Shown piece after piece: positions 2,758 to 63,022 of a stretch of DNA of 64,000 nt (position 1 is the stretch's first letter; the number at the start of each line of letters is the position of its first letter). The position numbers and the translations under genes were made by a program. The notes beneath the pieces were generated by a model. The model did no database searches and was not told where the DNA came from. It saw nothing but the letters and a program-made list of their open reading frames with translations. The stretch is from Cordylochernes scorpioides. Taxonomy: Eukaryota > Arthropoda > Arachnida > Pseudoscorpiones > Chernetidae. The stretch spans positions 17,585,649-17,649,648 of the forward strand of contig CP092880.1 in NCBI GenBank assembly GCA_030710605.1, written 5' to 3'.

Positions 2758-2874
2758 CTAAAAGGATTAACCGCCAGCAGTGAGTAAGCCTTTGTTTTGC
2801 TCGAAGTTTAGGCGTCAACCGCCAACCATAACCCTAGTTTCTTTTTGTCGTTGGCCGATTCCAAGACAAAGAAG

Positions 2875-5800: not shown

Positions 5801-6738
5801 AGGCAATAGCTATTATAATGGATGAGTTAGAACACGCATTTGATATTACATCTGGAAGTTTTAACTTTTTTGTTGGGCTACAAATAGAGCAGTCAGAAGA
5901 TAGGGCAAGTATTTTCATTCACCAGTCATCATATATTGACAAAATTTTGAGTAAATTTAATATGGCTGACTGTATTCCTGCTTCGGTGCCTATGGATCCT
6001 TCTGTCATCTTAACAAAGCAGGACTGTCCTACTCCAGAACAAAAGGAAAAGATGCCTAAATTCCCTTTTCGAGAAGCTGTTGGATCCCTTATGTTTGCAT
6101 CATGTGTTTCACGTCCAGATATCACTTATGCAGTTTCACAAGTGAGTAAATTCCTAGAATATCCAGGACCTGCACATTGTACAACAGTGAAGAATATTTT
6201 CCGTTATCTGAAAGGCACTCCACACATGGGAATTCTCTTCACTGGACAAGACCAACTTGTTGGCTACTCTGATAGTGATTTTGCTCGTGATGTTGACTCC
6301 AGAAAAAGTACGACTGGTTATGCCTTCATGATGAACGGAGGAACTGTTTCTTGGGCAAGCCAACGACAACCAATTATCGCACTTTCAACCACCGAAAGTG
6401 AATACATCGCTGCCTGCAGTGCTGCCAAGGAATTGATTTGGATCAGAAGACTTCTACAGGGCATCGGCTGTGATATTACTAAAGAAACTGAACTTTATAT
6501 CGACAACCAAGCAGCAATAAAACTTGTTGAAAATCCAGTATTCCACAAACGAACGAAACATATTGATGTTCGCTACCACTTCATTAGATCCAAACATGAA
6601 GAAGGTGAACTTAAAGTGCATCATGTTTTCAGCTCAGAACAGCTAGCTGATATATTGACTAAACCTCTTCCACGACACAAATTCCACTACTTAAGAGGTC
6701 TACTGAACATTTTGGATCGAGAGGGAGTGTTGGAATAG
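2875..6738 (+). CDS. copia Gag-Pol polyprotein (intact)
   Basis: The protein has 1287 residues from the first ATG; the frame opens slightly earlier at a TTG. Gag is followed by a CCHC knuckle (CHYCHKIGHWSREC, about 228-241). Next come an aspartic protease (ADSGAS, Asp284) and an integrase with an HHCC zinc domain (about 415-465) and Asp482, Asp545 and Glu581, giving DD35E. Reverse transcriptase has YVDD at about 964-967, and RNase H has SDSDF, TTESEY and DNQAA motifs. The order protease-integrase-RT-RNase H defines Ty1/copia. The stop at 6736-6738 lies 11 bases inside the 3' LTR. No frameshift or stop was found. The polyprotein would be cleaved by its own protease and build cytoplasmic particles in which RNA is copied to DNA. 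Confidence 0.96.
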   Translation: MSEDCLSRIKVFNSENFSLWKFQFRLLLEQQKLLELLEGLEIKPNVVSSDSNSESSLQNWKSKDVKARMLLSQAIELKFLQPLMNCTSASQMWQKLLAIHEQKFTIGLLWQQFFDARLTSETISDYLAKIENISAQISQMGGTITEDQKVAKILNTLPSSMRYFVAAWESLDPKAQTLNNLIARLLIEETRNQQSGSSKQDEALLHRQARTKPKDTQRSFQDAKKNTKCHYCHKIGHWSRECRKRLANEKNKSKNLHDSKGSSSDYGLILCDNQVEPNDIWYADSGASCSMTFRREWFKTYTPFTSDHPIYLGDNSTLLAEGMGDIEIQAYVDGGWYNTYIRNVLYSPQLKKNLYSLSTSTRRGFNVIIKHDKLQIFMDNDLKAVGVRHDGLYRMLFKVTSSSQGYITSENKLQLWHEILAHLPVATLREMATKGLVDGLQPQDLEGEFFFCEGCQLGKAHRKSCYPSDGKNYQLGEFIYADICGPMQTQSLSKYLYFCLFKDYFSGYRHIYFIKNKSDVLDIFKEYATLIYTQTGNKIKVLRTDNALEFKSDNFADLCKRFGIIHEFTAPYVHEQIGRIERDNRTIVEAARSMLNSRNLPGFFWAEECNTATYILNRSATKQTPGTTPYELFFGTKPNVANYKIFGCNAYMHIPKENRKKWDNKSIKLMFLGYENTSKNFRLWDWKTRKIRISKDVTFDEKATPHSDRESTKPKEIIFQINSAPDESPVAATNIPVQEMLPVSDISSHPMITRSKVSNSQCNFALADEPSNYIDAITSSDSERWKLAMDEEIDALNKNKTWTLERLADGHKPIGCKWVYKIKTESDGTIQRFKARLVAKGYSQIKNVDYFDTFSPVVRYDSLRILLSQAASERMFLKQFDVKTAFLNGELEELVYLEQPEGYKRDDNSCFRLHKSLYGLRQSSRNWNKKFTNFLYSHNFKTSNADPCIFIGTHNDSNVILALYVDDGIILSKDKEAIAIIMDELEHAFDITSGSFNFFVGLQIEQSEDRASIFIHQSSYIDKILSKFNMADCIPASVPMDPSVILTKQDCPTPEQKEKMPKFPFREAVGSLMFASCVSRPDITYAVSQVSKFLEYPGPAHCTTVKNIFRYLKGTPHMGILFTGQDQLVGYSDSDFARDVDSRKSTTGYAFMMNGGTVSWASQRQPIIALSTTESEYIAACSAAKELIWIRRLLQGIGCDITKETELYIDNQAAIKLVENPVFHKRTKHIDVRYHFIRSKHEEGELKVHHVFSSEQLADILTKPLPRHKFHYLRGLLNILDREGVLE

Positions 6739-8143: not shown

Positions 8144-9073
8144 ATGGAAACCAAACGAGATCAAGCAGCGGAAGACAACGACGGCCAATCGAGGGGGGAG
8201 AATTCGGCGAGGACGGGCGAGACAACTGCGCCCCTAGCGGACGTCGTCACACAACTGGCGACGCTACTGACGCGAGCGAAGGTTTCTGATGGAGCGGCGG
8301 CGACCCTTTCACCTTTCGATGGAACGTATAGTGCTCACCAGTTTTTCCAAGCATTCGATCGGAAAATGGAAGACGCCCACATAGACGACCCCGAAAAATT
8401 ACTCCGGTTACCGAGTTACCTGGCGCGACAACCCCTGGAACTCTTTAGAAAACTTCGGTTAGCCAGCCAGAACTATTTCCAGGTGAGGCAAATCCTCTTG
8501 GATCTCTATCCGGAGTCCAGCGGAGCGTCCTTCGCGAAATATTTCGCCATGAAGCTTACTGGACAAGCAGACCTGGAGACGTACTACCGGGAGAAAACCG
8601 CCATGGGGTTACAACTAGGGCTACCGCAGGAGGTGATCCTCGAGACGCTGACAGAAGGATTGCCGTTCTCCGACCAGCGACTGGTCCGCGTAGTACCTCC
8701 TGAGAACCTAGGAGAATGGTTCCGTCTAGCACAGCGGATCCATGGGCCCAGCGTACCGACGACACGACACCGAGAGGAACACCCGCCCACAATGTCGGGT
8801 CCGTACCACAGCACACCTCGACGCACAGGTGCATGGGCTGCACCTCCTCCGCCGTCCAACTGTAAGTTCTGCGGCGCTCGGCACTGGCACAGCGAATGCC
8901 GGCATAGGCCAGTCCCAACGACCCACGAAAACGCAAGGGCAGTGCAAATGGCCCAAAATCTATCCTCGAGTCCAAGGGCAGTGCAAGCGGCCCCGACACA
9001 GCAACACGCCAGGCGTCCCACGCAGCCATCCCAAGCCGGAGACCCACCAGCCAGGTCGACTTTTCGAGACTGA
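8144..9073 (+). CDS. gypsy Gag
   Basis: The protein has 309 residues from the first ATG after the LTR. It has an acidic, Ala/Thr-rich N-terminus, a retrotransposon capsid-like middle region (about 55-200, with FDGTYSAHQFFQAFDRKM and LRLPSYLARQPLELF) and one CCHC knuckle (CKFCGARHWHSEC) near the C-terminus. It would form the RNA-packaging particle. Pol overlaps its 3' end in the +1 frame, so Pol is presumably made by ribosomal frameshifting. The start at 8144 is chosen because everything upstream lies inside the LTR. Confidence 0.85.
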   Translation: METKRDQAAEDNDGQSRGENSARTGETTAPLADVVTQLATLLTRAKVSDGAAATLSPFDGTYSAHQFFQAFDRKMEDAHIDDPEKLLRLPSYLARQPLELFRKLRLASQNYFQVRQILLDLYPESSGASFAKYFAMKLTGQADLETYYREKTAMGLQLGLPQEVILETLTEGLPFSDQRLVRVVPPENLGEWFRLAQRIHGPSVPTTRHREEHPPTMSGPYHSTPRRTGAWAAPPPPSNCKFCGARHWHSECRHRPVPTTHENARAVQMAQNLSSSPRAVQAAPTQQHARRPTQPSQAGDPPARSTFRD

Positions 9074-12000
9074 GTCCGAGACTGAGGTAGGATCCCAACC
9101 CTTTACCGCCACGCAGCTGACGATGAAACTGTTTCTAACACCTGATATACCATGTCCCTTTTTGATTGATACGGACGCAAGTTTAAATATATTGCCATCT
9201 AATTTGTGTAAAATGTTAAGAATTCATCTCCCTAACTTCTACTACAATAGGCAGTCCATAGACCTACAGGCTATCAATGGTTATATAAAAACAGTAGGTC
9301 AAATTTCTCTCCCTCTGACAATAGGTAACATATCCAGAAAAGAGAATTTCCACGTGGTGGAAGCACCATTGCCATTCGGAATTCTGAGTTTAAATACCCT
9401 CCGTAATTTTAGATTAACGATAGATTTCAATCAAAGCACTATATTTCAACTTGGCGTCCCATTGTCTACCTCTAACTATAATTTTAACCATGTACCAAAT
9501 GAATGCACGTACTGGGAGTGCCAAGAATTATCCCAAAGGACTTTCCCTGCAACCAATCCTTCCACACATGGCAACCATTGCGTGCATCCATTGAACACCA
9601 CACAATTAACTACCTGCCACCAATCTAATCACGCAACTCATAACTTTTTTACAAAGGCCAATTGTCATTACTATATGCCCTCAACTCACAAGGCCACAAC
9701 GGCTTCAACTTGTAACAACAATACACCAAACGTGTACATCCCACAGGACAACTCGCATACCGGGCACATAGGTGTCCAGACATCGTCACAAAGCAATCAC
9801 GCAAATGTACATCGCCACAAACGTGACACTCACGCTAAAACACAACAAAACCCTTTTCCACATACATGCTACAACTTGACAAACAATCCTCTCTATCCAT
9901 CCCAGTTCACCACAATCTTAAAAATATACAATCACATTTTTACCCAAAATAAATTCAGCATACCATGCTTAAGGATTCCACAAGTAAAAATACCCACGAA
10001 CTCCGACAAAATAATTACCATACGTCCATATCGTGTTCCGATATGTGACCAACAGGAAATCCGCAACCAGGTCCAAAAAATGCTGGAGAATGGCATTATA
10101 GAGCAATCCTTTTCACCTTTCTCGATCCCTGTCACACTCGTCACCAAGCGAGACAAGACCAAAAGGTTTTGTATTGACTATAGAAAGGTGAACGAGCTAA
10201 TTAACTCTGATGTCCATCCCCTCCCGAGGATCGGGGATATACTCGACCGTCTCGCACAGGCCAAGTATTTCTCCACGGCCGACATATCCTCAGCGTATTG
10301 GCAGGTCCCAATACACCCCGATTCTCGACCACTGTTGGCCTTTGCCACGCTCGAAGGGTTATACCAGCCCACTCGATTACCTTTCGGGTTAAAAACCAGC
10401 CCTCAGATCTACGAACGAGCCATGAATCTGATCCTACAGAGACACGGACTTGACTGTGTGGCACATTATTTTGATGACTTCATCATTTTCTCCAACACAC
10501 TGGAGGAACATCAAAATCACCTGCGACAATTTTTCGCCTTCTGCGAGGTAGAGAAGTTACAACTTAACTTCGCAAAATGCGATTTTTTTAAGCAGTCAAT
10601 AGATTTCCTAGGCTACACCGTCACAGCTGGTACCACCACACCGCTCACAAGCAACACCGACATAATCCACGCAATTAAACAACCCCACAACCGAAAAGCA
10701 CTACAATCCTTTCTAGGCGCTGTGAACGTCTATAACAAATTCATCCCGGAATACGCTCGCTTGCGAGCACCACTCAATAACCTTCTCAAAAAGGATGTCG
10801 TGTGGATCTGGGATGAAGCTTGCCAAAAGGCGTTCATTGACCTGAAAGAGAACCTCACACAACATCCCATTTTACACCTTTACAAAGAGGGCCTGCCATG
10901 CCAAGTGTATTGTGATGCATCCACCCTCGGTATAGCAGGCATCCTCAAACAGGTTCACCCTGATGGGAACGTATATCTGGTTCAGTACTTCAGCCGCACT
11001 CTGCGCCCACACGAGCGAAACTATTCCATCTCTGAACTTGAGTGCTTAGCAATCGTTGAGAGTGTGGAGAAGTTTCGCATCTATCTGATGGGCAGAAAAT
11101 TTACAATATTTTCTGACCATCACGCATTGCAGTGGCTGAAGACAATTAAAAACCCGTCAGGCAGGTTGTTTCGATGGAGTTTGCGACTATCGAGTTACGA
11201 GTATGAGGTCCGCTACGTAAAAGGAAAACAACAGTATGAGGCAGATCTTTTGTCCCGTAACCCGTTCTGTGGGTTCTTAGACGCACCCCTTATTAAGACC
11301 CACCAGACTTCTCCATCGAGAGAATCTAGCCTGACCATTGATCACAATGGACTGCATACCGTTTCCCGAAAGAGTGTAATAAAAATTATAGTTCCCAAGA
11401 CACTCGTCCAACAACTTTTACACACAGTACACGCACAATACAATCACCCCGGTATTTCACAAATGTCACGACTCATCTCCGCTCAATATTACTGGCAGGG
11501 TATGTCGAAGGACATTAAACAAAAGGTTAAGACATGCCCCACCTGCGAGTTAACAAAACGTCCATTGGGACCCACTTACGGGGAGTTAAGTCAACCGCCG
11601 GAAGCCAAAGAACCCTTTGACCTACTATCCCTAGACACCATAGCAGGATTTGCCAAATATGGCAACACCAAGATATACCTCCATGTTGTAGTCGACCATT
11701 TTTCGCGCTACGCGTGGACTTTTCCATCTAAATCCACCAGCATCACCACCTACCAACAGGTACTTAAGCGAGTATTACAGGATGGCTCTCCGAAACGCCT
11801 TCTTACGGATAGAGCCCCTGCATTCACTTCGCCAAAATTTAGTAGCTTCCTACTTAACAGAAACATCCACCCATTACTCACAACTAGCAATAATCCGCAG
11901 GCCAACGGTCTATGTGAACGCCTGAACGCCACCCTCCCGGGAAAACTTAGGCTATTACATTTAGAGAATCCTAAGATCGCATGGACCAAGCTGGTCAAAC

Positions 12001-12848
12001 GAGTTACAATCATATATAACAACACACCACACTCTACCACCGGTTTTCCACCCATCTACCTGATGTTTGGAGTCCTGCCCCCAGAAATCTCTAACCACAA
12101 CACACCTTACACAGATATCGACAGAGCTAGGAAGATCGCACACACACGAACACAAAATAAACACATACAAGACAAAAACATTTATGACCAACGACACAAG
12201 CAACCACATTTCGAAATAGGTGATCTAGTGTTAGTTAAATTATATCACCACCCCAACACAGGGAAGCTCGCTCCGTATTTCACAGGGCCCCATACAATAT
12301 TAGAAATTATCTCACCAAATGTGGTCCGTATAGATAGGCCCAATCAACCTCTCCAAAGAGACACTGATACGATCCACGTCAACAAGTTAAAATTATATAC
12401 AGAGAAAGTCTGTTATATAACACCGCCCGCCATTAGAATACATCATGTAAGACACAAGCCCGATTACACGTTCCCGTTTAAACATTTCACACCTGAATTA
12501 TTTCCAGCAGAACCGTTGAGATTCAAACCAACAAACAGCGAGCCTTTCAAGCATTTAGATCCTACCATTTTTTCCAAAGAACGATTTACACCGTTCTCCC
12601 ACGATAACAAGAAGTGCGACATAGAACAGTCACAAATAAATAAAGTCCAAATAGATATCCCGGAATCACAATTTATAGCACAAATATGGGAGAAGATGTG
12701 TCGATACCCCATTTTTCACCTGATTTTTGTTATTTGTCTACTATCTCTACCCTATGGACTCATACCATTCTTATCCATCGTTCACATGCTAATTTATACC
12801 CTATCTTCTCATAGAATTTTCAACTGCGAGAGGCAGTTTTCCATATAG
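8742..12848 (+). CDS. gypsy Pol (protease, RT, RNase H, integrase) with hydrophobic tail
   Basis: An open frame of 1368 codons. The first ATG lies inside gag, so true entry is likely by a frameshift in the 8742-9073 overlap. The aspartic protease site reads LIDTDAS at residues 142-148, where families have DTG; this single change may impair it. RT carries FCIDYRKVN and YFDDF (about residue 575), then RNase H (YCDAS, ELECLAI, SDHHALQWL). Integrase has the H-x-H, C-x2-C domain (about 900-930) and catalytic Asp, Asp and Glu within SLDTIAG, LTDRAPAF and GLCERLN. A GPY/F-like module follows. The last 60 residues hold two strongly hydrophobic segments, odd for Pol. No separate envelope frame is present. 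Confidence 0.88.
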   Translation: MGPAYRRHDTERNTRPQCRVRTTAHLDAQVHGLHLLRRPTVSSAALGTGTANAGIGQSQRPTKTQGQCKWPKIYPRVQGQCKRPRHSNTPGVPRSHPKPETHQPGRLFETESETEVGSQPFTATQLTMKLFLTPDIPCPFLIDTDASLNILPSNLCKMLRIHLPNFYYNRQSIDLQAINGYIKTVGQISLPLTIGNISRKENFHVVEAPLPFGILSLNTLRNFRLTIDFNQSTIFQLGVPLSTSNYNFNHVPNECTYWECQELSQRTFPATNPSTHGNHCVHPLNTTQLTTCHQSNHATHNFFTKANCHYYMPSTHKATTASTCNNNTPNVYIPQDNSHTGHIGVQTSSQSNHANVHRHKRDTHAKTQQNPFPHTCYNLTNNPLYPSQFTTILKIYNHIFTQNKFSIPCLRIPQVKIPTNSDKIITIRPYRVPICDQQEIRNQVQKMLENGIIEQSFSPFSIPVTLVTKRDKTKRFCIDYRKVNELINSDVHPLPRIGDILDRLAQAKYFSTADISSAYWQVPIHPDSRPLLAFATLEGLYQPTRLPFGLKTSPQIYERAMNLILQRHGLDCVAHYFDDFIIFSNTLEEHQNHLRQFFAFCEVEKLQLNFAKCDFFKQSIDFLGYTVTAGTTTPLTSNTDIIHAIKQPHNRKALQSFLGAVNVYNKFIPEYARLRAPLNNLLKKDVVWIWDEACQKAFIDLKENLTQHPILHLYKEGLPCQVYCDASTLGIAGILKQVHPDGNVYLVQYFSRTLRPHERNYSISELECLAIVESVEKFRIYLMGRKFTIFSDHHALQWLKTIKNPSGRLFRWSLRLSSYEYEVRYVKGKQQYEADLLSRNPFCGFLDAPLIKTHQTSPSRESSLTIDHNGLHTVSRKSVIKIIVPKTLVQQLLHTVHAQYNHPGISQMSRLISAQYYWQGMSKDIKQKVKTCPTCELTKRPLGPTYGELSQPPEAKEPFDLLSLDTIAGFAKYGNTKIYLHVVVDHFSRYAWTFPSKSTSITTYQQVLKRVLQDGSPKRLLTDRAPAFTSPKFSSFLLNRNIHPLLTTSNNPQANGLCERLNATLPGKLRLLHLENPKIAWTKLVKRVTIIYNNTPHSTTGFPPIYLMFGVLPPEISNHNTPYTDIDRARKIAHTRTQNKHIQDKNIYDQRHKQPHFEIGDLVLVKLYHHPNTGKLAPYFTGPHTILEIISPNVVRIDRPNQPLQRDTDTIHVNKLKLYTEKVCYITPPAIRIHHVRHKPDYTFPFKHFTPELFPAEPLRFKPTNSEPFKHLDPTIFSKERFTPFSHDNKKCDIEQSQINKVQIDIPESQFIAQIWEKMCRYPIFHLIFVICLLSLPYGLIPFLSIVHMLIYTLSSHRIFNCERQFSI

Positions 12849-18929: not shown

Positions 18930-20066
18930 TTGCATAATCGAAGCCTCCTTAATAACGAGATCCTAGAAAAATGTGGAATCGAGTATAAACTTGAGGAAAC
19001 GGTTCAATCAAAGAAGAGAACTCGCGGCTCCCAATCGGATGACTCAAGATCGCCAACTAGGAGCGAGCGTAATCTGAAGACGCCTAGAATGGACATCGAC
19101 GAACAAAGTCCCGCCACTGAAATTTCTCAACAAATGAACGTAGCTCACCCACCGCAAGACGATGAAGAAAATAACGACAACGATGGCCCATGGACCACAG
19201 TCACTAACGTGAAAAAACCGAGAATTCCTCCTGTTATTGCAGAAAATGTAGCAGATTGGAAGCTTCTTTGCCAAGAACTAAAAGGCTTGTGCACGGAACC
19301 ATTCCAAGTCACGATTTCTGGCAAAAAGCACATAATTAAATCGAAAAACATAGGCGACTTCAAAAAAATCAGGGAGTATGTACAGAAAAATAATGGAGGA
19401 TATTCCTACAGACTACAGGAGGAAAAACCACTGAAAGTGGTATTGAAGGGGGTAACAACAGCCTTCAAAGAAGAAGATGTCGTAACTGAACTGGTCTCAA
19501 TGGGCTTCACTGAGGTCATTGTCAAAAGACTCCATAGACAATCGACCAAAATACCGATGAATATAGTCCTAGTAGAGCTACCGAAAAATGAACACAATAA
19601 ACGAATCTATGGAATAACCGAAATACTTTACCAAAAAATAGTTGTGGAATCATTCAGGACTACAAAACGAGTGACCCAATGCTTTAACTGCCAGGGTTTT
19701 GGGCATGGCCAGCTAAACTGCTTTTTGAAGCCCAAATGCGTCAAGTGTGCTGAAGAACATCATTCGAAGGATTGTCCAAGAAAGTCGAAACAGCTCCCAC
19801 CAAAGTGCGCTAACTGTGGAGAGGCGCACACAGCCAATTACCGCGGATGCCCAAATTTTCCGAAGCCACAACAACAGCAGCTAAAGCCTCCCAGACAAAA
19901 CTCCTCTAACACCATACCTCAAGCAAGCTCCACTAAAACAGAAGAAGCAACTGTTGAAAAACTAAAGGCAAGTTACGCAGAAACTACAAAAAAGAAAACT
20001 ACTCGTTCTGACACCAGGGAACTGTGCGAAAAGTTATTAGAAATTATCAAAACTTACTTACAATGA
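18930..20066 (+). CDS. LINE ORF1, Gag-like protein with three CCHC knuckles
   Basis: The open frame has 378 codons. No ATG lies near its start; it opens at TTG, and an in-frame ATG (MDIDEQ) occurs at about 19090, so a one-base loss near the 5' end is possible. A PRE_C2HC-like domain (PLKVVLKGV onward, about 167-235) precedes three zinc knuckles (CFNCQGFGHGQLNC, CVKCAEEHHSKDC, CANCGEAH) at about 250-310. This layout is characteristic of Jockey ORF1, which binds element RNA. Its TGA overlaps the ORF2 ATG. Confidence 0.88.
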   Translation: MHNRSLLNNEILEKCGIEYKLEETVQSKKRTRGSQSDDSRSPTRSERNLKTPRMDIDEQSPATEISQQMNVAHPPQDDEENNDNDGPWTTVTNVKKPRIPPVIAENVADWKLLCQELKGLCTEPFQVTISGKKHIIKSKNIGDFKKIREYVQKNNGGYSYRLQEEKPLKVVLKGVTTAFKEEDVVTELVSMGFTEVIVKRLHRQSTKIPMNIVLVELPKNEHNKRIYGITEILYQKIVVESFRTTKRVTQCFNCQGFGHGQLNCFLKPKCVKCAEEHHSKDCPRKSKQLPPKCANCGEAHTANYRGCPNFPKPQQQQLKPPRQNSSNTIPQASSTKTEEATVEKLKASYAETTKKKTTRSDTRELCEKLLEIIKTYLQ

Positions 20067-22690
20067 AAGGAAAATTACCTTTAAAAATCGTTTTCTGGAA
20101 TTGCAACGGAATCAAACTGAAAAAAGAAGAATTCCTAAAGTTTTTAGAAGAAAACTCAATAGACATGGCACTTCTCAGTGAAACACACTTAAAAACATCT
20201 GTCGACCTCAAACTCAGAAACTATCAGACAATAAGAGACGATAGAATCGTTGGAAGGGGCGGTGGAACGGCAATAATTCTAAAAAACTATCTTAAATATA
20301 AAAAAGTGCTGATTCAAACATCTAACATGGAAAACACCACAATTCTAATGAAACCAGATGGAAGGGCAGTAGTGCAGATATCGTCAATATATAAGAAACC
20401 CGATCTACCACTCCAGGAGGAAGATCTGAATCTCTTGTTAGAGAATAATCAATCAGTAATCGCTGCAGGAGACTGGAACTCCAAGCACCCTCTTTGGGGC
20501 TCAAGAACCTCCAATAATAGTGGAACCGTGCTTCATAATTTTTCCGAAAAAGAAAACCTGGACATTGTCGCACCTTCTTCACCCACGCACTACAGTCCTT
20601 TGGGAAATCCAGACTTTTTAGACATCGCAATTCTTAGAAACATCCCCTGGACTTCGAGGATTAAGACCCTGGATGCCTTATCTTCAGATCACCTCCCAGT
20701 AATCCTAGAGCTGACCTGCCCGAAGGATGAATTCACGACTAGGGCTTGCCGACTCACTAACTGGGTACACTTCCAACAAGACTTAATTTCCAGTACGCCT
20801 CCTAGAGTACCCTTGAAAACGGAAGCCAATATTGACTCAGCAGTGACCATAATAAATGATAAAATCTACAACAGCTACTCAAAAAACACAGTTATATCAT
20901 CCTCTTCATCAAAACAGAACCCCTCAACCAAGGCCTTGATAAAAGAAAAGAATAAAGCTCGTAAGAGATGGCAAGCAACCTGGGATCCAGCCCATAGAGC
21001 CATTTATTTAAACCTACAGGGAAAAGTTAACAAAGCCCTCAAATCCGACTCCACCGAGAACTGGAATCAATTCATACACAAGATTGAATCAAGCCCAAAG
21101 GACTTCTGGAGAAAAACAAAACCCATCAGGAAAAAAACGGAAAGGATCTCAAGTTTAGTAACGAACGGCAAAACCTTATTGACCGACAAAGAAATCGGAA
21201 ATGAACTTGCAGAACACTTCTCCAACCAATTCTCCAAGGAAAAAGAAGAAGACCAACCAAATATAACTTATAATCACCAACAAGAAAAAATGCTCACAAT
21301 GACGACACCAAATGAAGTCAAAGAAGTGATTAAATACTTAGCTAACCACAAAGCTCCTGGCCATGACAATATCACTCCGCAAATGGCCAAGAATCTTCCC
21401 ATCAAATGGATTGTATTTCTAGCTGGAGTATTCAACGCCGCACTGCACTTGTGTTACTACCCCAAAGTCTGGAAGCATGCTATCATAATTCCAATTCCAA
21501 AAAAATCCGCTAAATCCCCTGAAGATCTAAGACCTATCAGCCTCCTCTCCACCATCGGCAAAATTTACGAAAGAATTATTCTACGTAGACTTCATATGTA
21601 CTTGGACAACTCTAACTTCATCATCCCGCAGCAATTCGGATTTAGAAGGGGGCATTCAACAACTCACCAACTCATTGCAGTTCTGGACTACATCCAGATA
21701 AGAAGATCCCACAAGGAAGTGGTAGGTGCTGTCTTTCTAGATTTTGCGAAAGCATTTGATAAAGTTTGGCATAATGGCCTTATAAAGAAACTCACAAAAC
21801 ACCAGTTCCCAAGTGACATTATCAATTTTATGCAGAATTATCTACAGGGCAGGACATTTTCAGTCAAGCAAGGAAATTTTATAACTGAACCAAAACCAAT
21901 CCAGACTGGAGTACCTCAAGGCTCTATCCTCGGACCCTACCTTTTCAATATTTACATTAATGACATCCCACTGCACTCTAAATGTAAACTTAAGCTCTTC
22001 GCAGATGACACAGCAATTTTATTCAACTCTAAATCAGTCAACCTATTGGTTACTCAGCTTCAGAGTTACCTAAATGACATAATCAAATGGTGCGATGAGT
22101 GGAAACTAGACATCAACCCAACTAAGACTCAAGCAATAGTTTTTCCCCCAAGAGATAACAAAAAATTCAAGCCACAAACCAACTTGACAGTAAACTCAAG
22201 CACTATTAGTTGGGCCGACCATGCCAAGTATCTTGGTGTCACTTTGGATTCGAAATTAAAATTTAACCTACATGTCCAAAACACCATAAGAAAGGCAAAG
22301 ATAGCCAAAATATCTCTATCAAGCCTGCTCAATTTTAAAAGTAATTTAACAACAAAGCATAAATTCACGTTGTACAAAACCTGTATTCTACCCATCATCA
22401 CGTACGCACTACCAGTCTGGGGCAAATATATCACACCTACGGATAAAAAAAGAATAGATGCCTTCATGAGGATTTGCTTACGAACCACTATAGGAGCCCC
22501 ATTCAATCTTTCAAACAAAATTCTCAAAGAAGATCTCAACCAGCCTAATCTAGAAGAGATTTATCAAGACTCTGCGACAAGACTATTTTCGCAATTTCAA
22601 AAATCATCAAATCCAACTATACAAGAAATTGTTCAAAACCAAGGTGACCTCAGCCACCGAATCCGACGACCTGACCCAATGGCTAGCTGA
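20063..22690 (+). CDS. LINE ORF2, endonuclease-reverse transcriptase (intact)
   Basis: The protein has 875 residues from ATG 20063. The N-terminal AP-type endonuclease (about 5-225) has FWNCNG, LLSETHL, AGDWNSKHP and the SSDHLP active-site motif. The reverse transcriptase (about 470-710) carries LRPISLLSTIGK, FLDFAKAFDKVWH, GVPQGSILGPYLF and FADDTA (about 646). The C-terminal region contains PVWGKYITPTDKK, usual for Jockey. The enzyme would nick the target and copy the RNA in place. No stop or shift was found, so the copy is young and possibly competent. Confidence 0.94.
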   Translation: MKGKLPLKIVFWNCNGIKLKKEEFLKFLEENSIDMALLSETHLKTSVDLKLRNYQTIRDDRIVGRGGGTAIILKNYLKYKKVLIQTSNMENTTILMKPDGRAVVQISSIYKKPDLPLQEEDLNLLLENNQSVIAAGDWNSKHPLWGSRTSNNSGTVLHNFSEKENLDIVAPSSPTHYSPLGNPDFLDIAILRNIPWTSRIKTLDALSSDHLPVILELTCPKDEFTTRACRLTNWVHFQQDLISSTPPRVPLKTEANIDSAVTIINDKIYNSYSKNTVISSSSSKQNPSTKALIKEKNKARKRWQATWDPAHRAIYLNLQGKVNKALKSDSTENWNQFIHKIESSPKDFWRKTKPIRKKTERISSLVTNGKTLLTDKEIGNELAEHFSNQFSKEKEEDQPNITYNHQQEKMLTMTTPNEVKEVIKYLANHKAPGHDNITPQMAKNLPIKWIVFLAGVFNAALHLCYYPKVWKHAIIIPIPKKSAKSPEDLRPISLLSTIGKIYERIILRRLHMYLDNSNFIIPQQFGFRRGHSTTHQLIAVLDYIQIRRSHKEVVGAVFLDFAKAFDKVWHNGLIKKLTKHQFPSDIINFMQNYLQGRTFSVKQGNFITEPKPIQTGVPQGSILGPYLFNIYINDIPLHSKCKLKLFADDTAILFNSKSVNLLVTQLQSYLNDIIKWCDEWKLDINPTKTQAIVFPPRDNKKFKPQTNLTVNSSTISWADHAKYLGVTLDSKLKFNLHVQNTIRKAKIAKISLSSLLNFKSNLTTKHKFTLYKTCILPIITYALPVWGKYITPTDKKRIDAFMRICLRTTIGAPFNLSNKILKEDLNQPNLEEIYQDSATRLFSQFQKSSNPTIQEIVQNQGDLSHRIRRPDPMAS

Positions 22691-22842
22691 CAGCCAAACA
22701 CCCAACAACTGCCCTCCTGTAAGGTTCGGGGGGCCACTCCAGCATCACAACTCGCCATGTGTAAATAATCTGGACAAGGTGACTCGCGAGCTGTGCTCGA
22801 ATGTAACACCTGCAAATTGAGATGAAATAAATAAATAAATAA

Positions 22843-24887: not shown

Positions 24888-26215
24888 TCTTCATTGTTGG
24901 CTTTTTATATTATATTTACTCTTCATTGTTGGCTTTTTATCTTACATTCACTCTGTTGGCTTTTTAAATTACATTTACTCTTCATTGTTGGCTTTTTATC
25001 TTACATTCACTCTTCATTGTTGGCTTTTTATATTATATTTACTCTTCATTGTTGGCTTTTTATCTTACATTCATTCTTCAAGGTTGGCTTTTTATAATAC
25101 ATTCACTCTTCATTGTTGGCTTTTTATCTTACATTCACTCTGTTGGCTTTTTAAATTACATTTACACTTCATTGTTGGCTTTTTATCTTACATTCACTCT
25201 TCATTGTTGGCTTTTTATATTATATTTACTCTTCATTGTTGGCTTTTTATCTTACATTCATTCTTCATTGTTGGCTTTTTATATTACATTTACTATTCAT
25301 TGTTGGCTTTTTATCTTACATTCATTCTTCATTGTTGGCTTTTTATATTACATTTACTCTTCATTGTTGGCTTTTTATCTTACATTCACTCTTCATTGTT
25401 GGCTTTTTATATTATATTTACTCTTCATTGTTGGCTTTTTATCTTACATTTATTCTTCATTGTTGGCTTTTTATATTACATTTACTCTTCATTGTTGGCT
25501 TTTTATCTTACATTCACTCTTCATTGTTGGCTTTTTATATTATATTTACTCTTCATTGTTGGCTTTTTATCTTACATTCATTCTTCATTGTTGGCTTTTT
25601 ATATTACATTTACTATTCATTGTTGGCTTTTTATCTTACATTCACTCTTTATTGTTGGCTTTATATCTTACATTCATTCTTCATTGTTGGCTTTTTATAT
25701 TACATTCACTCTTCATTGTTGGCTTTTTATCTTACATTCATTCTTCATTGTTGGCTTTTTATATTACATTTACTCTTCATTGTTGGCTTTTTATCTTACA
25801 TTCACTCTTCATTGTTGGCTTTTTATATTATATTTACTCTTCATTGTTGGCTTTTTATCTTACATTTATTCTTCATTGTTGGCTTTTTATATTACATTTA
25901 CTCTTCATTGTTGGCTTTTTATCTTGCATTCATTCTTCATTGTTGACTTTTTATATCATATTTACTCTTCATTGTTGGCTTTTTATCTTACATTTATTCT
26001 TCATTGTTGGCTTTTTATATTATATTTACTCTACATTGTTGGCTTTTTATCTTACATTTATTCTTCATTGTTGGCTTTTTATATTACATTTACTCTTTAT
26101 TGTTGGCTTTTTATCTTACATTCATTCTTCATTGTTGGCTTTTTATATCATATTTACTCTTCATTGTTGGCTTTTTATCTTACATTCATTCTTCATTGTT
26201 GGCTTTTTATATTAT
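24888..26215 (+). repeat. 32-bp minisatellite, about 41 copies
   Basis: The unit is TTCATTGTTGGCTTTTTATC plus about 12 bases. Two variants (TATCTTACATTCA and TATATTACATTTA types) alternate almost strictly, giving a 64-bp dimer and, in places, a 128-bp four-unit pattern. It lies in the core position of a HINE-like element: the right flank resumes at ATGATGATGCGCGCGCATCC. Because the units have no stop codon in any forward frame, very long frames appear; these are not genes. Confidence 0.92.
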
Positions 26216-26441
26216 ACTAATGATGATGCGCGCGCATCCGTGACATGAGGAATTGAGGAATTGATTGACGGTGGAAAGACGGTCGTGACTATATATGTTG
26301 ATAACTATAATAATAATAATAATATAATAATTATTATTATTATTATTATCATTAGATAATGATAATGATCATAATGATGATGCGCGCGCATCCGTGACAT
26401 GAGGAATTGAGGAATTGATTGAGGAGGAAAGACGGTCGTGA
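26216..26441 (-). mobile_element. two HINE 5' partial units
   Basis: Two copies of the 5' end module (ending near 26288 and 26441) with an intervening TAA/ATT tract, continuing the pattern of arrays A and B beyond the minisatellite. Confidence 0.7.
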
Positions 26442-26460: not shown

Positions 26461-27278
26461 TTACAATCTATAAAATAAAAGAAGACAAGTATCTTAAACG
26501 GTTTTTTATATACGCAAGCTTTCGGGTGAGAACCCTTCGACAGGCAGAAATAAACGATACAAACACGGCACCTATGGCAGGCAAGATTATATACACATAT
26601 GATATTTACATTGCTATGGTAAAGAGAATTACAAATAATATATTTACATAATTATGAATCGACGTATATAGAGAATCTAATTTTCAATAAAGATGCTAAT
26701 TACATGATTGGAGATAGGAGTTTCTTTGGAATACAATACTTAAATGATAAAAGATACTATAAGGGTAGAATTACATGAAGGCCAGGAGAGCATGGTAGGC
26801 TTCGGGGAGGTCGATTTTTCTATTGATACTGCCTTGTTTATGTGATTCTATTGATTCCAATATGAGTCTTTGGTGTTGGTTATGTATGCGTCTGTAGAGT
26901 ATTTTAGGTTGTGTGATGCTAAAAGTGTGACCAGTGTCCTGTATGTGCTGATATATGAGGGATTTAGAGTCACAGTTGGATATGCTACGGGAGTGTTCAG
27001 ACATCCTGATGGCAACGGTTCTACCCGTCTCACCCACGTAAGTGGCAGAGCATTGCTCACATGAGACGGAATAGACCGCGCCACCAGAACGCAGGGGATC
27101 TATGGGGACGTGAGGCTTAGTATAAGGATGTCGGAGGGATGTGAGGAGGTTGGGGGAGTTTTTATAGTAGGTACGGATGCCATATGACTTAAGATGTCTT
27201 GCTATATCAACTGCAGGGGGGGAATAGGGGAGGAAACATATGGATCTATAAGTTGTGGATGAAATAGGGGCGCCCGGT
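26461..27278 (-). repeat. Penelope direct repeat, left copy
   Basis: 818 bp nearly identical to 29173-29990, holding the pseudo-LTR and the 3' part of the coding frame. It contains the motif CTGTCGAAGGG...CCCGAAAGC on the minus strand at about 26514-26545. Confidence 0.9.
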
Positions 27279-29059
27279 GTGTATGTATGTCTATTGATAA
27301 AAGCAAGGGGGAAGGAAGCCCTGGAGAGATGTGATATGATATTGGTCTTTTCTATAGTTTTAAAAATATCTAGAGAACAATGGGTATGTATTCTTTTGGT
27401 GAGGGTCTTAACTATGTTAACTTTATGTGAGGTGGGGCAATGTGAGTTAAAGTGAGTGTAACAAGGGGGGCATTGCTTCTTATAATGAACTGTGGTATGG
27501 TATGACATAGGGGTACGGATAATAAGAACGTCTAAGAATGGAATAACGTTATTGGACTCTATTTCTAGAGTAAATGAAATACTATTGTTGTAACTATTAA
27601 GATGTGATAATATAGAGCTCTCCTGGCCTTTTTTGCAAATACAAAACACATCATCAATATATCTTCGCCATAATAGAACATCTGAAGGAAGAGTGCTGGT
27701 AATCCATTGGTCTATCTGTAATAAAACAATTTCAGCTACAATGGAGGATAGAGGGCTGCCCATCGGGGAGCCCTTAATCTGTCTATAGTGATTCTGTGAG
27801 AATGTAAAAGTATTCATATTAAGACATATATCCGTGAGCTGTACTAGAGATGAAGAGGTCTGGGAATCTACGCCTTGTGTGTTGAGAAATTGCGATAAAC
27901 TCCTAATGATAAGCTCGTGAGGTAGACTAAGATAGAGGGAGGTGACATCAAATGAGCACATAATGGTGGAAGGGTCGGGGGTTATAGTGGTTATTTCACC
28001 GATAAAACGGGGGGTGCTATTGATGGAATAAGTATTATTGCAGCTGCTTAATATTGGGGACAGGTGATTGGATAAATACTTGGCTAAAGGGAATGCAGGA
28101 GATAGATGATAGGCTATGATGGGGCGAAGAGGTATATCTGTTTTGTGTATCTTAGGGAGGCCGTATATGTAAGCCGAGCTATTTAGGTTAGAGGTAAAGA
28201 GGTTATAATTATCTGGAGTGATATGTTTGTTCTTTTTTAATCGTAGTAGGGAAGTTCTAAATGCTTTAGTGATGGAGAGACTAACATGGTTTGATATAGG
28301 GGTGAAGGTGGAGCTATCACTAAGGAGGTCCTGCATTTTTGAAAGGTAACTATTTTGATTTAAGATGACAGTATTAAATCCCTTATCAGAACGCGTGATT
28401 AAAATGGATCTGTTGCGCTTTAGTCTCTGAAGTGTGGTAAGGTCTGCACGGTTGTTGGGGGGAGGGCAATAGGGCTTAGATAGAGATTTAGTCACCATAT
28501 TCCTGATGGAGAATTTATCACGGAGGTCAAAGGATTTAACTGATGCTTCAATAGCACTGACGGTCTCTGGGAGGTTGGGCTTGGCAGGAATACGGAACTT
28601 AAGACCCCTTTCCAATAGGGTGACTTCCGATGGTGATAGTTTATGGCTTGAAAGGTTGACAACAGATGAAGACCCATGTTCAAGGTTCTGGGTGACGACG
28701 AAATGCAAGGAATATTTCCTTTTCCAGAAGGTAAGTTTTTTGTGATGCCTAGCCAAAATTGTTCTTTCCTGAGACTTAACATCCTGAGTGATCCTAGCAA
28801 TATGGTTGGCCAGTTGAGATGGAGGGATATCTTGGGATAATAGGAACAGCATGCCTTTGATCGATTTCGTGAGCAGTCTGATATTGGAGAAACATCCTTG
28901 AATTCTAGCACTAAGTAACTGATGTTGTTTTTTTTTGATGATATCCTTTGAAAATGGGTTGCCAACAGGGTCTTTCATTCTAAGAGAAGGTGGGATGAAG
29001 TCTACACTTTTGCAAAACCGGTTGAACCTAAGATGGCATCTCCATCGTGCTAGCTGCAA
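26771..29059 (-). CDS. Penelope-like RT with GIY-YIG endonuclease (open)
   Basis: The open frame has 762 codons. It opens at TTG; the first ATG is at about 28978. RT motifs run in order: LPKIHK, SFDVTSLYLSLPHE, KGSPMGSPLSS, RRYIDDVF (about 462-469) and IPFLDVLI. A GIY-YIG nuclease follows at about 655-700 (VYSVSCEQC, YVGETGRT, MSEH), the diagnostic C-terminal domain of Penelope-like elements. It would cut the target and prime reverse transcription there. No internal stop was seen. It is typical in size, so possibly functional. Confidence 0.92.
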   Translation of the reverse strand: MQLARWRCHLRFNRFCKSVDFIPPSLRMKDPVGNPFSKDIIKKKQHQLLSARIQGCFSNIRLLTKSIKGMLFLLSQDIPPSQLANHIARITQDVKSQERTILARHHKKLTFWKRKYSLHFVVTQNLEHGSSSVVNLSSHKLSPSEVTLLERGLKFRIPAKPNLPETVSAIEASVKSFDLRDKFSIRNMVTKSLSKPYCPPPNNRADLTTLQRLKRNRSILITRSDKGFNTVILNQNSYLSKMQDLLSDSSTFTPISNHVSLSITKAFRTSLLRLKKNKHITPDNYNLFTSNLNSSAYIYGLPKIHKTDIPLRPIIAYHLSPAFPLAKYLSNHLSPILSSCNNTYSINSTPRFIGEITTITPDPSTIMCSFDVTSLYLSLPHELIIRSLSQFLNTQGVDSQTSSSLVQLTDICLNMNTFTFSQNHYRQIKGSPMGSPLSSIVAEIVLLQIDQWITSTLPSDVLLWRRYIDDVFCICKKGQESSILSHLNSYNNSISFTLEIESNNVIPFLDVLIIRTPMSYHTTVHYKKQCPPCYTHFNSHCPTSHKVNIVKTLTKRIHTHCSLDIFKTIEKTNIISHLSRASFPLAFINRHTYTPGAPISSTTYRSICFLPYSPPAVDIARHLKSYGIRTYYKNSPNLLTSLRHPYTKPHVPIDPLRSGGAVYSVSCEQCSATYVGETGRTVAIRMSEHSRSISNCDSKSLIYQHIQDTGHTFSITQPKILYRRIHNQHQRLILESIESHKQGSINRKIDLPEAYHALLAFM

Positions 29060-29172: not shown

Positions 29173-29990
29173 TTACAATCTATAAAATAAAAGAAGACAA
29201 GTATCTTAAACGGTTTTTTATATACGCAAGCTTTCGGGTGAGAACCCTTCGACAGGCAGAAATAAACGATACAAACACGGCACCTATGGCAGGCAAGATT
29301 ATATACACATATGATATTTACATTGCTATGGTAAAGAGAATTACAAATAATATATTTACATAATTATGAATCGACGTATATAGAGAATCTAATTTTCAAT
29401 AAAGATGCTAATTACATGATTGGAGATAGGAGTTTCTTTGGAATACAATACTTAAATGATAAAAGATACTATAGGGGTAGAATTACATGAAGGCCAGGAG
29501 AGCATGGTAGGCTTCGGGGAGGACGATTTTTCTATTGATTCTGCCTTGGTTATCTGATTCTATTGATTCCAATATGAGTCTTTGGTGTTGGTTATGTATG
29601 CGTCTGTAGAGTATTTTAGGTTGTGTGATGCTAAAAGTGTGACCAGTGTCCTGTATGTGCTGATATATGAGGGATTTAGAGTCACAGTTGGATATGCTAC
29701 GGGAGTGTTCAGACATCCTGATGGCAACGGTTCTACCCGTCTCACCCACGTAAGTGGCAGAGCATTGCTCACATGAGACGGAATAGACCGCGCCACCAGA
29801 ACGCAGGGGATCTATGGGGACGTGAGGCTTAGTATAAGGATGTCGGAGGGATGTGAGGAGGTTGGGGGAGTTTTTATAGTAGGTACGGATGCCATATGAC
29901 TTAAGATGTCTTGCTATATCAACTGCAGGGGGGGAATAGGGGAGGAAACATATGGATCTATAAGTTGTGGATGAAATAGGGGCGCCCGGT
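29173..29990 (-). pseudogene. truncated tandem Penelope copy (GIY-YIG end only)
   Basis: Repeats the pseudo-LTR and the last 160 or so codons, including VYSVSCEQC and YVGETGRT. A handful of substitutions separate it from the full copy. At 29990 it breaks off in the middle of the coding sequence and joins a Helitron-like 5' segment. Confidence 0.88.
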
Positions 29991-30146
29991 TCTTTTCTCA
30001 TCGGCCTCTGTCACGGATGCGCGCGCACAGGGAGGCCACGTGCTCGCCGGCTCCCTCGAGCCGGATTTGAACCAGCGACTTAAGGATCACCGTTGTAACA
30101 TCTACAGTCGGGTAAAACACGGGCGTTGCCCGGGTCATTCGGCTAG
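29991..30146 (+). mobile_element. mini-Helitron made of a 5' end, half a tRNA-Tyr and a 3' hairpin
   Basis: A 156-bp segment: CTGTCACGGATGCGCGC (HINE 5' part), the 3' half of a minus-strand tRNA-Tyr with intron (30052-30109), then GGGTAAAACACGGGCG, the hairpin and CTAG at 30143-30146. The tRNA is cut immediately before the terminal hairpin block. Confidence 0.7.
30052..30109 (-). pseudogene. 3' half of tRNA-Tyr, truncated
   Basis: Same sequence as 16279 onward (T arm, intron, anticodon side), but it stops at GACTGTAGA. The D arm and 5' acceptor strand are missing. Confidence 0.8.
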
Positions 30147-31861: not shown

Positions 31862-32230
31862 TGAAAGGATTTAAAAGCACGAATGTTTCTTCTATACACA
31901 ATACAGACTTCTACTGCCCTTACTGCGATGAAAGAATATATTGGGAGGGCTTGGCTCATCAGTGGTGAACCCTCCCAGCGGTTTCGATAATTTAATCCAC
32001 CAGACCGCTTCTTAGAGCTCTAATACTGTATTGGACGTTTTTGCTTGTATACGCAGCACTGAAGGGTGGAATCTAAGAAATTGATTTCAAGAAAACAATG
32101 GATATAAACTTATAAGACAGTAGAATTACATTTGAACATTTGTATCGAGCAATGCTCTTCCGCAAAGGACAGTAGAAGTTTGTATTGTGTATAAAAAGAA
32201 ACATTCGTCCTTTCAAATTCTTTTATTTTA
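31862..32230. mobile_element. inverted-repeat element carrying the permuted hammerhead module
   Basis: Ends are inverted repeats of about 40 bp (CGAATGTTTCTT, ATACACAATACA, CTTCTACTG on the left; their complement at 32165-32217). Inside is the module at 31943-32008 and a second conserved block, GCGGAAGAGCATTGCTCGAT (minus), also found at 39893 and 62799. No coding capacity. Related copies are listed under the individual modules. Confidence 0.65.
31943..32008 (-). ncRNA. hammerhead-like ribozyme module with permuted strands, copy 1
   Basis: On the minus strand, in order: GCGGUC, UGGUGGA, a linker, GAAACCGC, GGGAGGG, UUCACCA, CUGAUGA, GCCA, CCCUCCC. GCGGU pairs with ACCGC (helix III, next to the GUC cleavage triplet), UGGUGGA with UUCACCA (helix I), and GGGAGGG with CCCUCCC closes the second hairpin. 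Helix II has only its first pair here, but is complete (UGGC/GCCA) in copy 2. All hammerhead core boxes are present; their order is not a simple rotation of the known types. Activity is inferred. Confidence 0.5.
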
Positions 32231-32905: not shown

Positions 32906-33285
32906 TCAGGGAAGAACGTTTATAAAATAATTTTATTGACATCTTGTTAATACATGCAAAAGTGCATTGTCTGCACTATTTTAAAAAGATAATTATATAT
33001 ATATCCGATAGATAGCGCAATCCATGAGTAACTTTCAGTTGCACGATAAGGAGATGCCTTTTTTTTCTTAATATATTGATTTTTATGAAAAAACAATAGA
33101 AAAAATAAAAGATAAGTGGGTCAGGTGTTGATATTAAAAATAAAGAAGGCATCTCCTGAACACAAGCACATGTGCTTTTTAGATGGCAGAGCGCCATCTA
33201 GTGGAGCAAAAATAAACTTAACGTTTATTTAGCTTGCTCCGAGATATTTGGCCAACCTAATTTCTTGATAAATCAAGAAAAGCCA

Positions 33286-33327
33286 TCCACGAACGCGTTT
33301 CGCGCTGTTGGCGCTCGTCAGCGTGGA
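33286..33327 (-). ncRNA. minimal hammerhead ribozyme core, left arm
   Basis: The complement of the right-arm copy: UCCACG-CUGACGA-GCGC-CAACA-GCGC-GAAA-CGCGUU-CGUGGA. Helix I is UCCACG/CGUGGA and helix II GCGC/GCGC. Helix III would be the self-complementary ACGCGU, which can pair between two molecules or between the two arms. Confidence 0.7.
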
Positions 33328-33588
33328 GAAGGCTGTAACCACTGCGACCAAAAATATTTTTTGGTCCCAATGGCTTCCCGAAAAATCAAGAAATGGGTAT
33401 TTAAAGCCAAATTTGCGTAAAGACGCTTAACACATGAAAAAACAATCTTATATTTTATTTTTTTCTATTGTTTTTTTTTCATGTGTTAAGCGTCTTTACG
33501 CAAATTTGGCTTTAAATACCCATTTCTTGATTTTTCGGGAAGCCATTGGGACCAAAAAATATTTTTGGTCGCAGTGGTTACAGCCTTC

Positions 33589-33630
33589 TCCACGCTGACG
33601 AGCGCCAACAGCGCGAAACGCGTTCGTGGA
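33589..33630 (+). ncRNA. minimal hammerhead ribozyme core, right arm
   Basis: Same elements on the plus strand: helix I 33589-33594 with 33625-33630, CUGACGA 33595-33601, helix II around the CAACA loop, GAAA 33615-33618, then CGCGUU with cleavage expected after the GUU triplet at 33622-33624. Minimal hammerheads with palindromic helix III that act as dimers are known from Penelope-like elements. Cleavage here is inferred. Confidence 0.72.
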
Positions 33631-33786
33631 TGGCCTTTCTTGATAAATCAAGAATTTGGGTTGGCCAAATATCTCGGAGCAAGCTAAATAAACGTTAAGT
33701 TTTTTTCTGCTCCACTAGATGGCGCTCTGCCATCTAAAAAGCACATGTGCTCGTGGTCAGGAGATGCCTTCTTTATTTTTAATATA

Positions 33787-34434: not shown

Positions 34435-34740
34435 CTCCACACTGTGTGAAGAAGAATGCGTCTGCCTTTGTCATTAAGACTGGAGGCACTACTCAGTGGC
34501 AGGCCACTGACTTAGCTCCAAAAGATATGGCCGCCTCTGACACGAGGAACAGACGCCATCTGCAGCCGCTCCTAACATGGAGTACAAACGCTGCTCATCC
34601 TGTATCCCTGGATTAGGGGCCCTTACAGGGTACTATCAGCCGGGCCAGCTGAGCCCAGGTATTTTAGCAAGCTTTTTACTGCTCCCCCTCCTCCTTTTTC
34701 ATCCGGGCTTGGGACCGGCACGGGCGGAGTTTTAGTTTAT
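34435..34740 (+). repeat. dispersed repeat, copy 1
   Basis: Shares about 190 bp with 62405-62595 (GAATGCGTCT, CACTACTCAGTGGCAGGCC, CTCCTAACATGGAGTACAAA). The remainder (CATCCGGGCTTGGGACCGGC) looks like the 3' end of a retroelement. No frame. Confidence 0.6.
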
Positions 34741-36490: not shown

Positions 36491-36713
36491 ACGATATGAT
36501 AGATTAAACTGGCGAAACCGCTGGAAGGGTTCACCACTGATGAGCCAGTCCCTCCTATTAAATATTTCATTGCAAATAAAGGGCAGTAGATACAGCAATT
36601 GTTTAATTATACCAAAACCTATATCATTAGCTCGTCATGGTATATTAGAATAAACTGACTAAATCGCTGGGAGGGTTCACCACTGATGAGCAGGGCCCTC
36701 CCATTAATTATTT
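36491..36713 (+). ncRNA. two decayed copies of the permuted hammerhead module
   Basis: 36491-36556 keeps UGGC-GAAACCGC, UUCACCA, CUGAUGA-GCCA and CCCUCC, but its GCGGUC strand is lost. 36631-36713 keeps GGGAGGG, UUCACCA, CUGAUGA and CCCUCCC, but GAAA has become UAAA. Both are probably inactive. Confidence 0.5.
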
Positions 36714-38349: not shown

Positions 38350-38560
38350 AGTCAAATAAGGGATTAGCACACATGTTTATGAAAATTCGAAACTATTATA
38401 GATGCGTATGATTCTTTTAAAAATTAAACAATTCTACTGCCCTTACTGTAATGGAAAACTTAATGGGATTGTAGTAAGGATATTATAAATTGTTTAATTT
38501 TTAAAAGAATCATACACGTCTATAATAGTTTAGAATTTTCATAAAAGATGGCGCGCAAAT
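38350..38560. repeat. fold-back MITE
   Basis: Inverted arms of about 75 bp (CGAAACTATTATAGATGCGTA ... its complement ACACGTCTATAATAGTTT). The arms end near GATGGCGCG, a terminal motif also seen at 32237, 39762, 46412 and 62743. Confidence 0.65.
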
Positions 38561-40046: not shown

Positions 40047-40112
40047 GCGGTATGGTAGATTAAACTGGCGAAACCGCTGGGAGGGTTCCCCACTGATGAG
40101 CCAGGCCCTCCC
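40047..40112 (+). ncRNA. permuted hammerhead module, copy 3
   Basis: GCGGU-A-UGGUAGA-UUAAAC-UGGC-GAAACCGC-UGGGAGGG-UUCCCCA-CUGAUGA-GCCA-GG-CCCUCCC. Helices II, III and the outer stem are intact, and helix I has two mismatches. The cleavage triplet is GUA, which hammerheads tolerate. Confidence 0.5.
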
Positions 40113-40286: not shown

Positions 40287-40350
40287 AGAGATGGAGATTA
40301 AAATAGAGAAAACGCTGGGAAGGTTCATCACTAATGAGACATCCCTCCTC
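40287..40350 (+). ncRNA. decayed permuted hammerhead module, copy 4
   Basis: Recognisable by GAAAACGCTGGGAAGGTTC and CACTAATGAG; CUGAUGA has become CUAAUGA, so it should be inactive. Confidence 0.4.
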
Positions 40351-59583: not shown

Positions 59584-59770
59584 TATATAAAATAAAAAGG
59601 ATTTAAAAGCGCGAATGTTTCTTTTATACATAAAACGAACTTCTACTGCCCTTACTGCGATGAAAAAATATGTTGGGAGGGCTTGGCTCATCAGTGGTGA
59701 ACCCTCCCAGCGGTTTCGCCAATTTAATCCACCAGACCGCTTCTCAGAAGTTCGTTTTATGTATAAATAT
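59584..59770. mobile_element. short inverted-repeat element with permuted hammerhead module
   Basis: Inverted ends ACATAAAACGAACTTCT and AGAAGTTCGTTTTATGT flank the module, so the RNA would fold with the module inside a closing stem. Confidence 0.65.
59675..59740 (-). ncRNA. permuted hammerhead module, copy 2 (best copy)
   Basis: Minus strand in order: GCGGU (59736-59740), C (59735, cleavage base), UGGUGGA (59728-59734), UUAAAU linker, UGGC (59718-59721), GAAA (59714-59717) with CCGC, GGGAGGG (59702-59708), UUCACCA (59695-59701), CUGAUGA (59688-59694), GCCA (59684-59687), CCCUCCC (59675-59681). All four helices are fully complementary. Confidence 0.55.
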
Positions 59771-62954: not shown

Positions 62955-63022
62955 GCGGTCTGATAGATTAAAAATTGGCGAAACTGCTGGCTGGGTTCCC
63001 TATCAATGGGCCAAGCCCTCCC
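62955..63022 (+). ncRNA. decayed permuted hammerhead module, copy 7
   Basis: Keeps GCGGUC, UGGC-GAAACUGC (still pairs with GCGGU through a G-U) and GCCA-AG-CCCUCCC, but CUGAUGA has become AUCAAUGG, so no cleavage is expected. Confidence 0.45.

Follow-up and report, generated by a model that had tools for sequence, protein, structure and literature searches.

A predicted type-SGC hammerhead ribozyme in the repeat unit of a retrozyme-like element of the pseudoscorpion Cordylochernes scorpioides

Type-SGC hammerheads, comprising the HRIMA-1 motif and its variants, were described from environmental sequence by Eckert et al. 2023 (PMC10085705), and according to the text of that paper none of them came from the genome of a known organism. 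Five type-SGC candidates cleaved in vitro, after NUH, and single modules cleave; in SGC-3 the disruption of any of the four helices abolished cleavage and compensation brought it back, and the geometry of modules in which stem III and the linking helix have near-zero spacing was called not obvious (PMC10085705). Metazoan non-LTR retrozymes, as described by Cervera and de la Pena 2020 (PMC7229834), carry type I hammerheads, and Penelope-like elements and Terminons contain minimal type I hammerheads without helix III or a loop-loop interaction, as described in PMC7761336.

We analysed a stretch of 64,000 nucleotides from Cordylochernes scorpioides (contig CP092880.1, positions 17,585,649 to 17,649,648), referred to below as the window, and found a module which, at a probability of about 0.75, we take to be a predicted type-SGC hammerhead carried by the repeat unit of an arthropod retroelement that is non-autonomous and retrozyme-like (Table 1). 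From 59740 to 59675 the minus strand reads GCGGU-C-UGGUGGA-UUAAA-UUGGC-GAAA-CCGC-U-GGGAGGG-UUCACCA-CUGAUGA-GCCAA-G-CCCUCCC. All catalytic positions are present in this copy, including CUGANGA, GAAA, the A15.1-U16.1 pair and an NUH site, and its blocks follow each other 5' to 3' in the order S (III'-NUH-I'), G (II'-GAAA-III) and C (I-CUGANGA-II). In addition to stems I-III there is a 7-bp linking helix between I and II, GGGAGGG/CCCUCCC (helix IV), which bridges their far sides. The sequence-only reading had given the pairs GCGGU/ACCGC (III), UGGUGGA/UUCACCA (I), UGGC/GCCA (II) and GGGAGGG/CCCUCCC for its best copy, and all of these can be read in 59675-59740 on the minus strand, where stem I includes one G.U and stem II extends to UUGGC/GCCAA. 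The strand order it gave for this copy (III-GUC-I, II-GAAA-III, I-CUGAUGA-II, with I and II crossing between two hairpin loops) was also read correctly, and from that order we agree that S-G-C cannot be obtained by circular permutation of types I-III. Its statement that no named class is arranged in this way is outdated, as the topology is that of the type-SGC, or non-circularly permuted, hammerhead; a new and nameless topology was rejected because type SGC is already published (Eckert et al. 2023, PMC10085705).

Our module resembles type SGC, as that class is described in PMC10085705, in its S-G-C order, CUGANGA, GAAA and NUH, in stems I-III and in the helix joining the other sides of I and II. 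The I'-II' linker is short in both, being 5 nt here and typically 3 nt in the published examples, and the single nucleotide that separates stem III from the linking helix falls within the published range of 0-44 nt (PMC10085705). Likeness to HRIMA-1 was judged by order, core and helices as described there. The two differ in their source, which here is arthropod nuclear DNA at very high copy number and in PMC10085705 is environmental sequence. The genomic context of the module is new, and searches of the open-licence literature turned up no paper whose title or abstract describes type SGC from the genome of an animal.

A search of the window against Rfam 15 found no hammerhead reaching the gathering score. 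Sub-threshold matches to Hammerhead_HH9 and twister-P1 were seen at 33272-33337 (-), 33579-33644 (+) and 34682-34736 (-); as the same region also has several sub-threshold miRNA hairpin matches, these are probably AT-rich hairpins.

Table 1 Coordinates, within the window, of the predicted type-SGC module, its parts and the related pieces.
Feature	Position	Strand	Details
Best predicted copy of the type-SGC hammerhead in the window, subfamily A	59675-59740	-	Predicted cleavage between 59735 (C17) and 59734
Block S	59728-59740	-	III' GCGGU 59740-59736, C17 59735, I' UGGUGGA 59734-59728
Block G	59710-59722	-	II' UUGGC 59722-59718, GAAA 59717-59714, III ACCGC 59714-59710; A15.1 common to both
Block C	59683-59701	-	I UUCACCA 59701-59695, CUGAUGA 59694-59688, II GCCAA 59687-59683
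Helix IV, 5' strand GGGAGGG	59702-59708	-	Counterpart of the type-SGC stem I-II interaction helix as described in PMC10085705
Helix IV, 3' strand CCCUCCC	59675-59681	-
Inverted joint between the two arms of the insertion (59675 copy)	59746-59748	n/a	3-nt overlap
Subfamily A copy	31943-32008	-	Core boxes intact; stem II broken (TTATC for TTGGC); inverted joint of unit pieces near 32166
Decayed subfamily B copy	36491-36556	+	AUA site; stems I and III damaged
Decayed copy	36631-36702	+	UAAA in place of GAAA
Subfamily B copy	40047-40112	+	GUA site (permitted NUH); GAAA and CUGAUGA present; stem II CUGGC/GCCAG; stem I damaged (UUCCCCA)
Decayed copy	40287-40349	+	No recognisable S block; CUAAUGA
Decayed subfamily A' copy	62955-63022	+	Without CUGAUGA (CTATCAATGG)
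3'-tail fragment of the unit	38432-38468	-	Inverted joint at 38468

Seven copies in the window had been said to contain GUC, GAAA and CUGAUGA, which proved too generous: all three are exact in only 2 of the 7, those beginning at 31943 and 59675. The listed copies other than 59675 are relatives of it, damaged to varying degrees. A looser core pattern, allowing up to 3 mismatches, gave 6 matches in the window compared with 0.22 expected from shuffles. The same reading's description of a dispersed module is an understatement, as the module forms part of a retrozyme-like mobile repeat of about 372 bp.

The tandem unit is 372/373 bp long in six subfamily A units and 370 bp in one subfamily B unit. 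It has a GC content of 37.3% (majority sequence of the six A units) and is non-coding, with 85 aa as the longest stop-to-stop frame in a dimer. By eye, a TATA-like box can be read approximately 45 nt upstream of the module in subfamily A. The stretches AGGACAGTAGAA and TTCTACTGTCCT are perfect 12-nt complements separated by approximately 170 nt in the A unit, and in the B unit their pairing includes two wobbles (units of loci L004 and L052), and the same two units show a small conserved palindrome, GAGCATTGCTC (GAGCGATTGCTC in B).

The units are organised in inverted arrays, (-)n|(+)m: among neighbouring unit pieces in the window and 146 loci, with tandem neighbours under a two-unit probe not scored as joints, distinct joints ran minus-then-plus in 69 cases, plus-then-minus in 6, minus-minus in 7 and plus-plus in 5. 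Snapback of a simple hairpin was rejected as the general cause of this arrangement because many of the joints unite different positions of the unit. A subset of joints does lie in the helix IV palindrome, GGGAGGG / rc(CCCTCCC), and forms long hairpins (loci L089, L097, L106, L110 and L119). The 138 joint ends scatter around the cleavage bond and are more frequent in the bins -20 to -1, +20 to +29, +50 to +59 and +70 to +79; 10 of them fall between -6 and -1, whereas the interval 0 to +3 has none, and this set does not support reading the joints as exact marks of 5' ends left by cleavage. At 12 of 22 A loci the two flanks share an identical repeat of 10 bp or more, compared with 2.8% of mismatched flank pairs; 5 of 30 loci had been set aside for overlap, as had elements that did not span the match. 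These repeats span 10-16 bp, plus one of 23 bp inside a TA run. Taken together, the arrays and flank repeats resemble target-primed retrotransposition of tandem or circular RNA, in which priming may have taken place from both target ends.

The genome holding the window comprises 2,619,359,433 bases in 24 contigs. A pattern covering the G and C blocks, GAAANNNNTGGGAGGGTTNNNNNCTGATGAG, has 54,105 exact matches genome-wide and one covering the S and G blocks, GCGGTNTGGTRGATTAAAYTGGCGAAACCGC, has 34,560; both patterns gave 0 when reversed. As 13 of the first 35 listed places of GAAANNNNTGGGAGGGTTNNNNNCTGATGAG are also among the exact copies of GCGGTNTGGTRGATTAAAYTGGCGAAACCGC, there may, as a rough estimate, be approximately 20,000 copies which carry both patterns. 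We also observed a longer non-coding repeat with G and C blocks and no recognisable S block (C type), which recurs (L147 around 1240, L148 and L149). It was present in 8 of 20 places taken from the first 35 listed GAAANNNNTGGGAGGGTTNNNNNCTGATGAG matches, which is not a genome-wide fraction because the 20 places are non-random, 13 of the 15 omitted being exact S-G copies. Exact-pattern scans gave 0 matches each in collections of viral contigs and of genome contigs, from which sequences near this genome are possibly excluded. Other observations on the genome were at least 150 matches over cut-off to Chitin_bind_4, a cuticle-protein family (150 of 150 scored, from 333 candidates), with matches in 0 of 14 control genomes, which makes an arthropod host most likely in view of the distribution of this family. 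Five contig ends examined for a telomere repeat yielded nothing.

The module is more strongly conserved between subfamilies than is the rest of the unit. When one real A unit was compared with one real B unit, the module stretch was 91% identical and the remainder 73%. Over 120 A-B pairs, identity was 0.906 in the module, 0.636 upstream and 0.767 downstream, it being noted that these sets were chosen by module match, which biases module identities within each set, and that their flanks possibly contain joints. For finer comparison we used 107 distinct copies, most of them fetched by similarity and remaining after 69 of 176 distinct matches with more than 2 gaps were left out. The core is intact in 77 of these and damaged in 30, and 41 of the 107 have the core together with 5/5 pairs in III, 4/4 in I, 4/4 in II and at least 6/7 in IV. 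The NUH rule is obeyed at position 17, where 106 of the 107 copies have C, A or U, and the subfamilies differ at this position, having C or A, both of which are cleavable letters.

Compensatory change, which had been named as a check on the helices, was found in part: at one pair of stem II between subfamilies, and neither in stem I nor in excess in stem III among copies. Pair 5 of stem II is T-A (A) in 55, C-G (B) in 46, AxC in 2, G.T in 2 and something else in 1 of 106 copies; it is the sole compensatory change between subfamilies and may represent one event. In stem I no compensatory change was seen among the aligned copies, and pair 5, which is G-C in A and AxC in A' and B, is an AxC mismatch in 74 of 107. 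For stem III, the whole-genome state counts were G-C 34,560, G.U 1,224, AxC 1,108 and A-U 117, giving an odds ratio of 2.98. An unpaired control, which combined the same 5' change with a C-to-T change in II', gave 1,972 singles and 208 doubles, an odds ratio of 3.29; since this is equally high, the excess of doubles in stem III is no sign of compensation. The excess fits older copies having more changes of all kinds, that is, neutral decay after insertion, which is the expectation for a transposable element. By eye, 40 copies of a differently spaced 5-N pattern (296 matches) look decayed, with no evident compensation in stem III.

These results bear on several other explanations of the module. 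We consider it unlikely that it is a fossil ribozyme which does not cleave in this species, in a repeat that spreads in some other way, as a SINE-like or foldback element. The core defects in 30 of 107 copies, the recurrence of the C-type repeat with only G and C blocks and the lack of compensation in stem III among copies would all suit such a history; however, the module stretch is the best conserved portion between subfamilies, and in the most frequent A sequence, which accounts for 36 of 179 matches (overlapping loci included, fetched by similarity to it), no core position and no helix is lost. Because the units stand in tandem, a canonical hammerhead could conceivably be built across neighbouring units, for example from the S and C blocks of one and the G block of the next, with the local S-G-C order incidental, as in the dimeric hammerheads known to be active in amphibians and Penelope-like elements (PMC7229834, PMC7761336). 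We regard this as very unlikely, since strands from different units would have to meet over more than 300 nt whereas local S-G-C pairing fits within 66 nt, and since helix IV is arranged as in published type SGC, in which, as reported in PMC10085705, single modules cleave.

That the resemblance arose by chance, in a repeat under selection for another feature such as the binding of a protein to two hairpins, is hardly credible to us. When the module was folded by itself, RNAfold gave hairpins III and IV (-27.8 kcal/mol), so that stems I and II remain available for the pseudoknot, and the two strong hairpins might alone be what is conserved; the energy of the loop-loop duplex is by itself unexceptional, 7.2% of shuffles being equally strong. 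Against this, 13 catalytic positions and stems I and II stand in register, and the letters at position 17 follow NUH. A strict descriptor, in which the core boxes, 5/5 pairs in III, at least 4/5 in I and 4/4 in II were required and helix IV was not demanded, matched exactly once in the window, at the 59675 copy, compared with an average of 0.005 (maximum 1) in 200 first-order Markov re-samplings.

The window contains a 762-aa reverse-transcriptase ORF (26771-29059, minus; Pfam RVT_1, E=3.1e-07), which we take to be Penelope-like, and a shorter relative of it at 29483-30028 (-) with a stop under the standard code. This ORF and its relative are a candidate supplier of reverse transcriptase; none of the window's module matches or of those fetched by similarity falls inside the ORF at 26771-29059. 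Three further long ORFs (2845-6738, 8742-12848 and 18930-22768, frames under table 4) presumably belong to Copia, Gypsy and LINE-type retrotransposons. Also seen were a repetitive stretch at 24985-26359, open in several frames (LAFYLTF...-like) and apparently a minisatellite, and, elsewhere in the window, six tRNA or tRNA-like matches.

If the module is a type-SGC hammerhead in a retrozyme-like element, we infer a life cycle in which cleavage, circularisation, a reverse transcriptase from another source and priming at both target ends would follow each other. The transcript of the tandem unit of approximately 372 nt would fold hairpins III and IV, the loops of which would pair via stems I and II while helix IV clamps the distal ends of I and II, and the RNA would then cleave itself after GUC in subfamily A or GUA in subfamily B. 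Multimeric transcripts would in this way be cut to monomers of approximately 372 nt and ligated into circles, by analogy with metazoan retrozymes as described in PMC7229834 and PMC7761336. The circles might be reverse-transcribed over several rounds by an enzyme acting in trans, perhaps from a Penelope-like element, and insertion, in most cases from both ends of the target, would duplicate about 10-16 bp of the target site and produce the (-)n|(+)m inverted tandem arrays.

We put at about even odds the wider proposal that the element is the first retrozyme family to use a non-circularly permuted (type-SGC) hammerhead, housed in the nuclear DNA of an animal in tens of thousands of copies, and that its inverted arrays record reverse transcription of circular or multimeric ribozyme RNA with priming at both ends of the target. 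The environmental type-SGC RNAs may in that case be related to such animal elements or have escaped from them. Type SGC, known earlier from unknown environmental hosts, would here be linked to an arthropod host, to a copy in DNA, to an architecture in the genome and to a plausible life cycle, which would make its natural role directly testable. There would also be very many natural variants with which to ask how the pseudoknotted fold is accommodated, including a stem III and linking helix which are 1 nt apart. Were the proposal true, a type I hammerhead would not be obligatory for animal retrozymes.

Compared with the hammerhead retroelements already known from animals, the element has in common with metazoan retrozymes, as these are described in PMC7229834, its short non-coding tandem repeats (about 150-450 bp there and 370-373 bp here), its low GC content (below 50% there and 37.3% here) and its target-site duplications (more than 4 bp there and, at 12 of the 22 loci here, 10 bp or more). 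It differs in the order of its hammerhead blocks, which is SGC and not the CGS of type I, and in its mostly inverted (-)n|(+)m arrays, an arrangement for which words such as 'inverted' or 'opposite' are absent from the text of PMC7229834. With Penelope-like elements and Terminons it shares the presence of a hammerhead inside a retroelement repeat, although theirs have a minimal type I topology, as described in PMC7761336, and the module here is predicted to be type SGC. The element can thus be described as retrozyme-like in size, GC content, tandem arrangement and target-site duplications, yet it is no classical member of that group and, as it lacks a type I hammerhead, is classed apart from the classical retrozymes.
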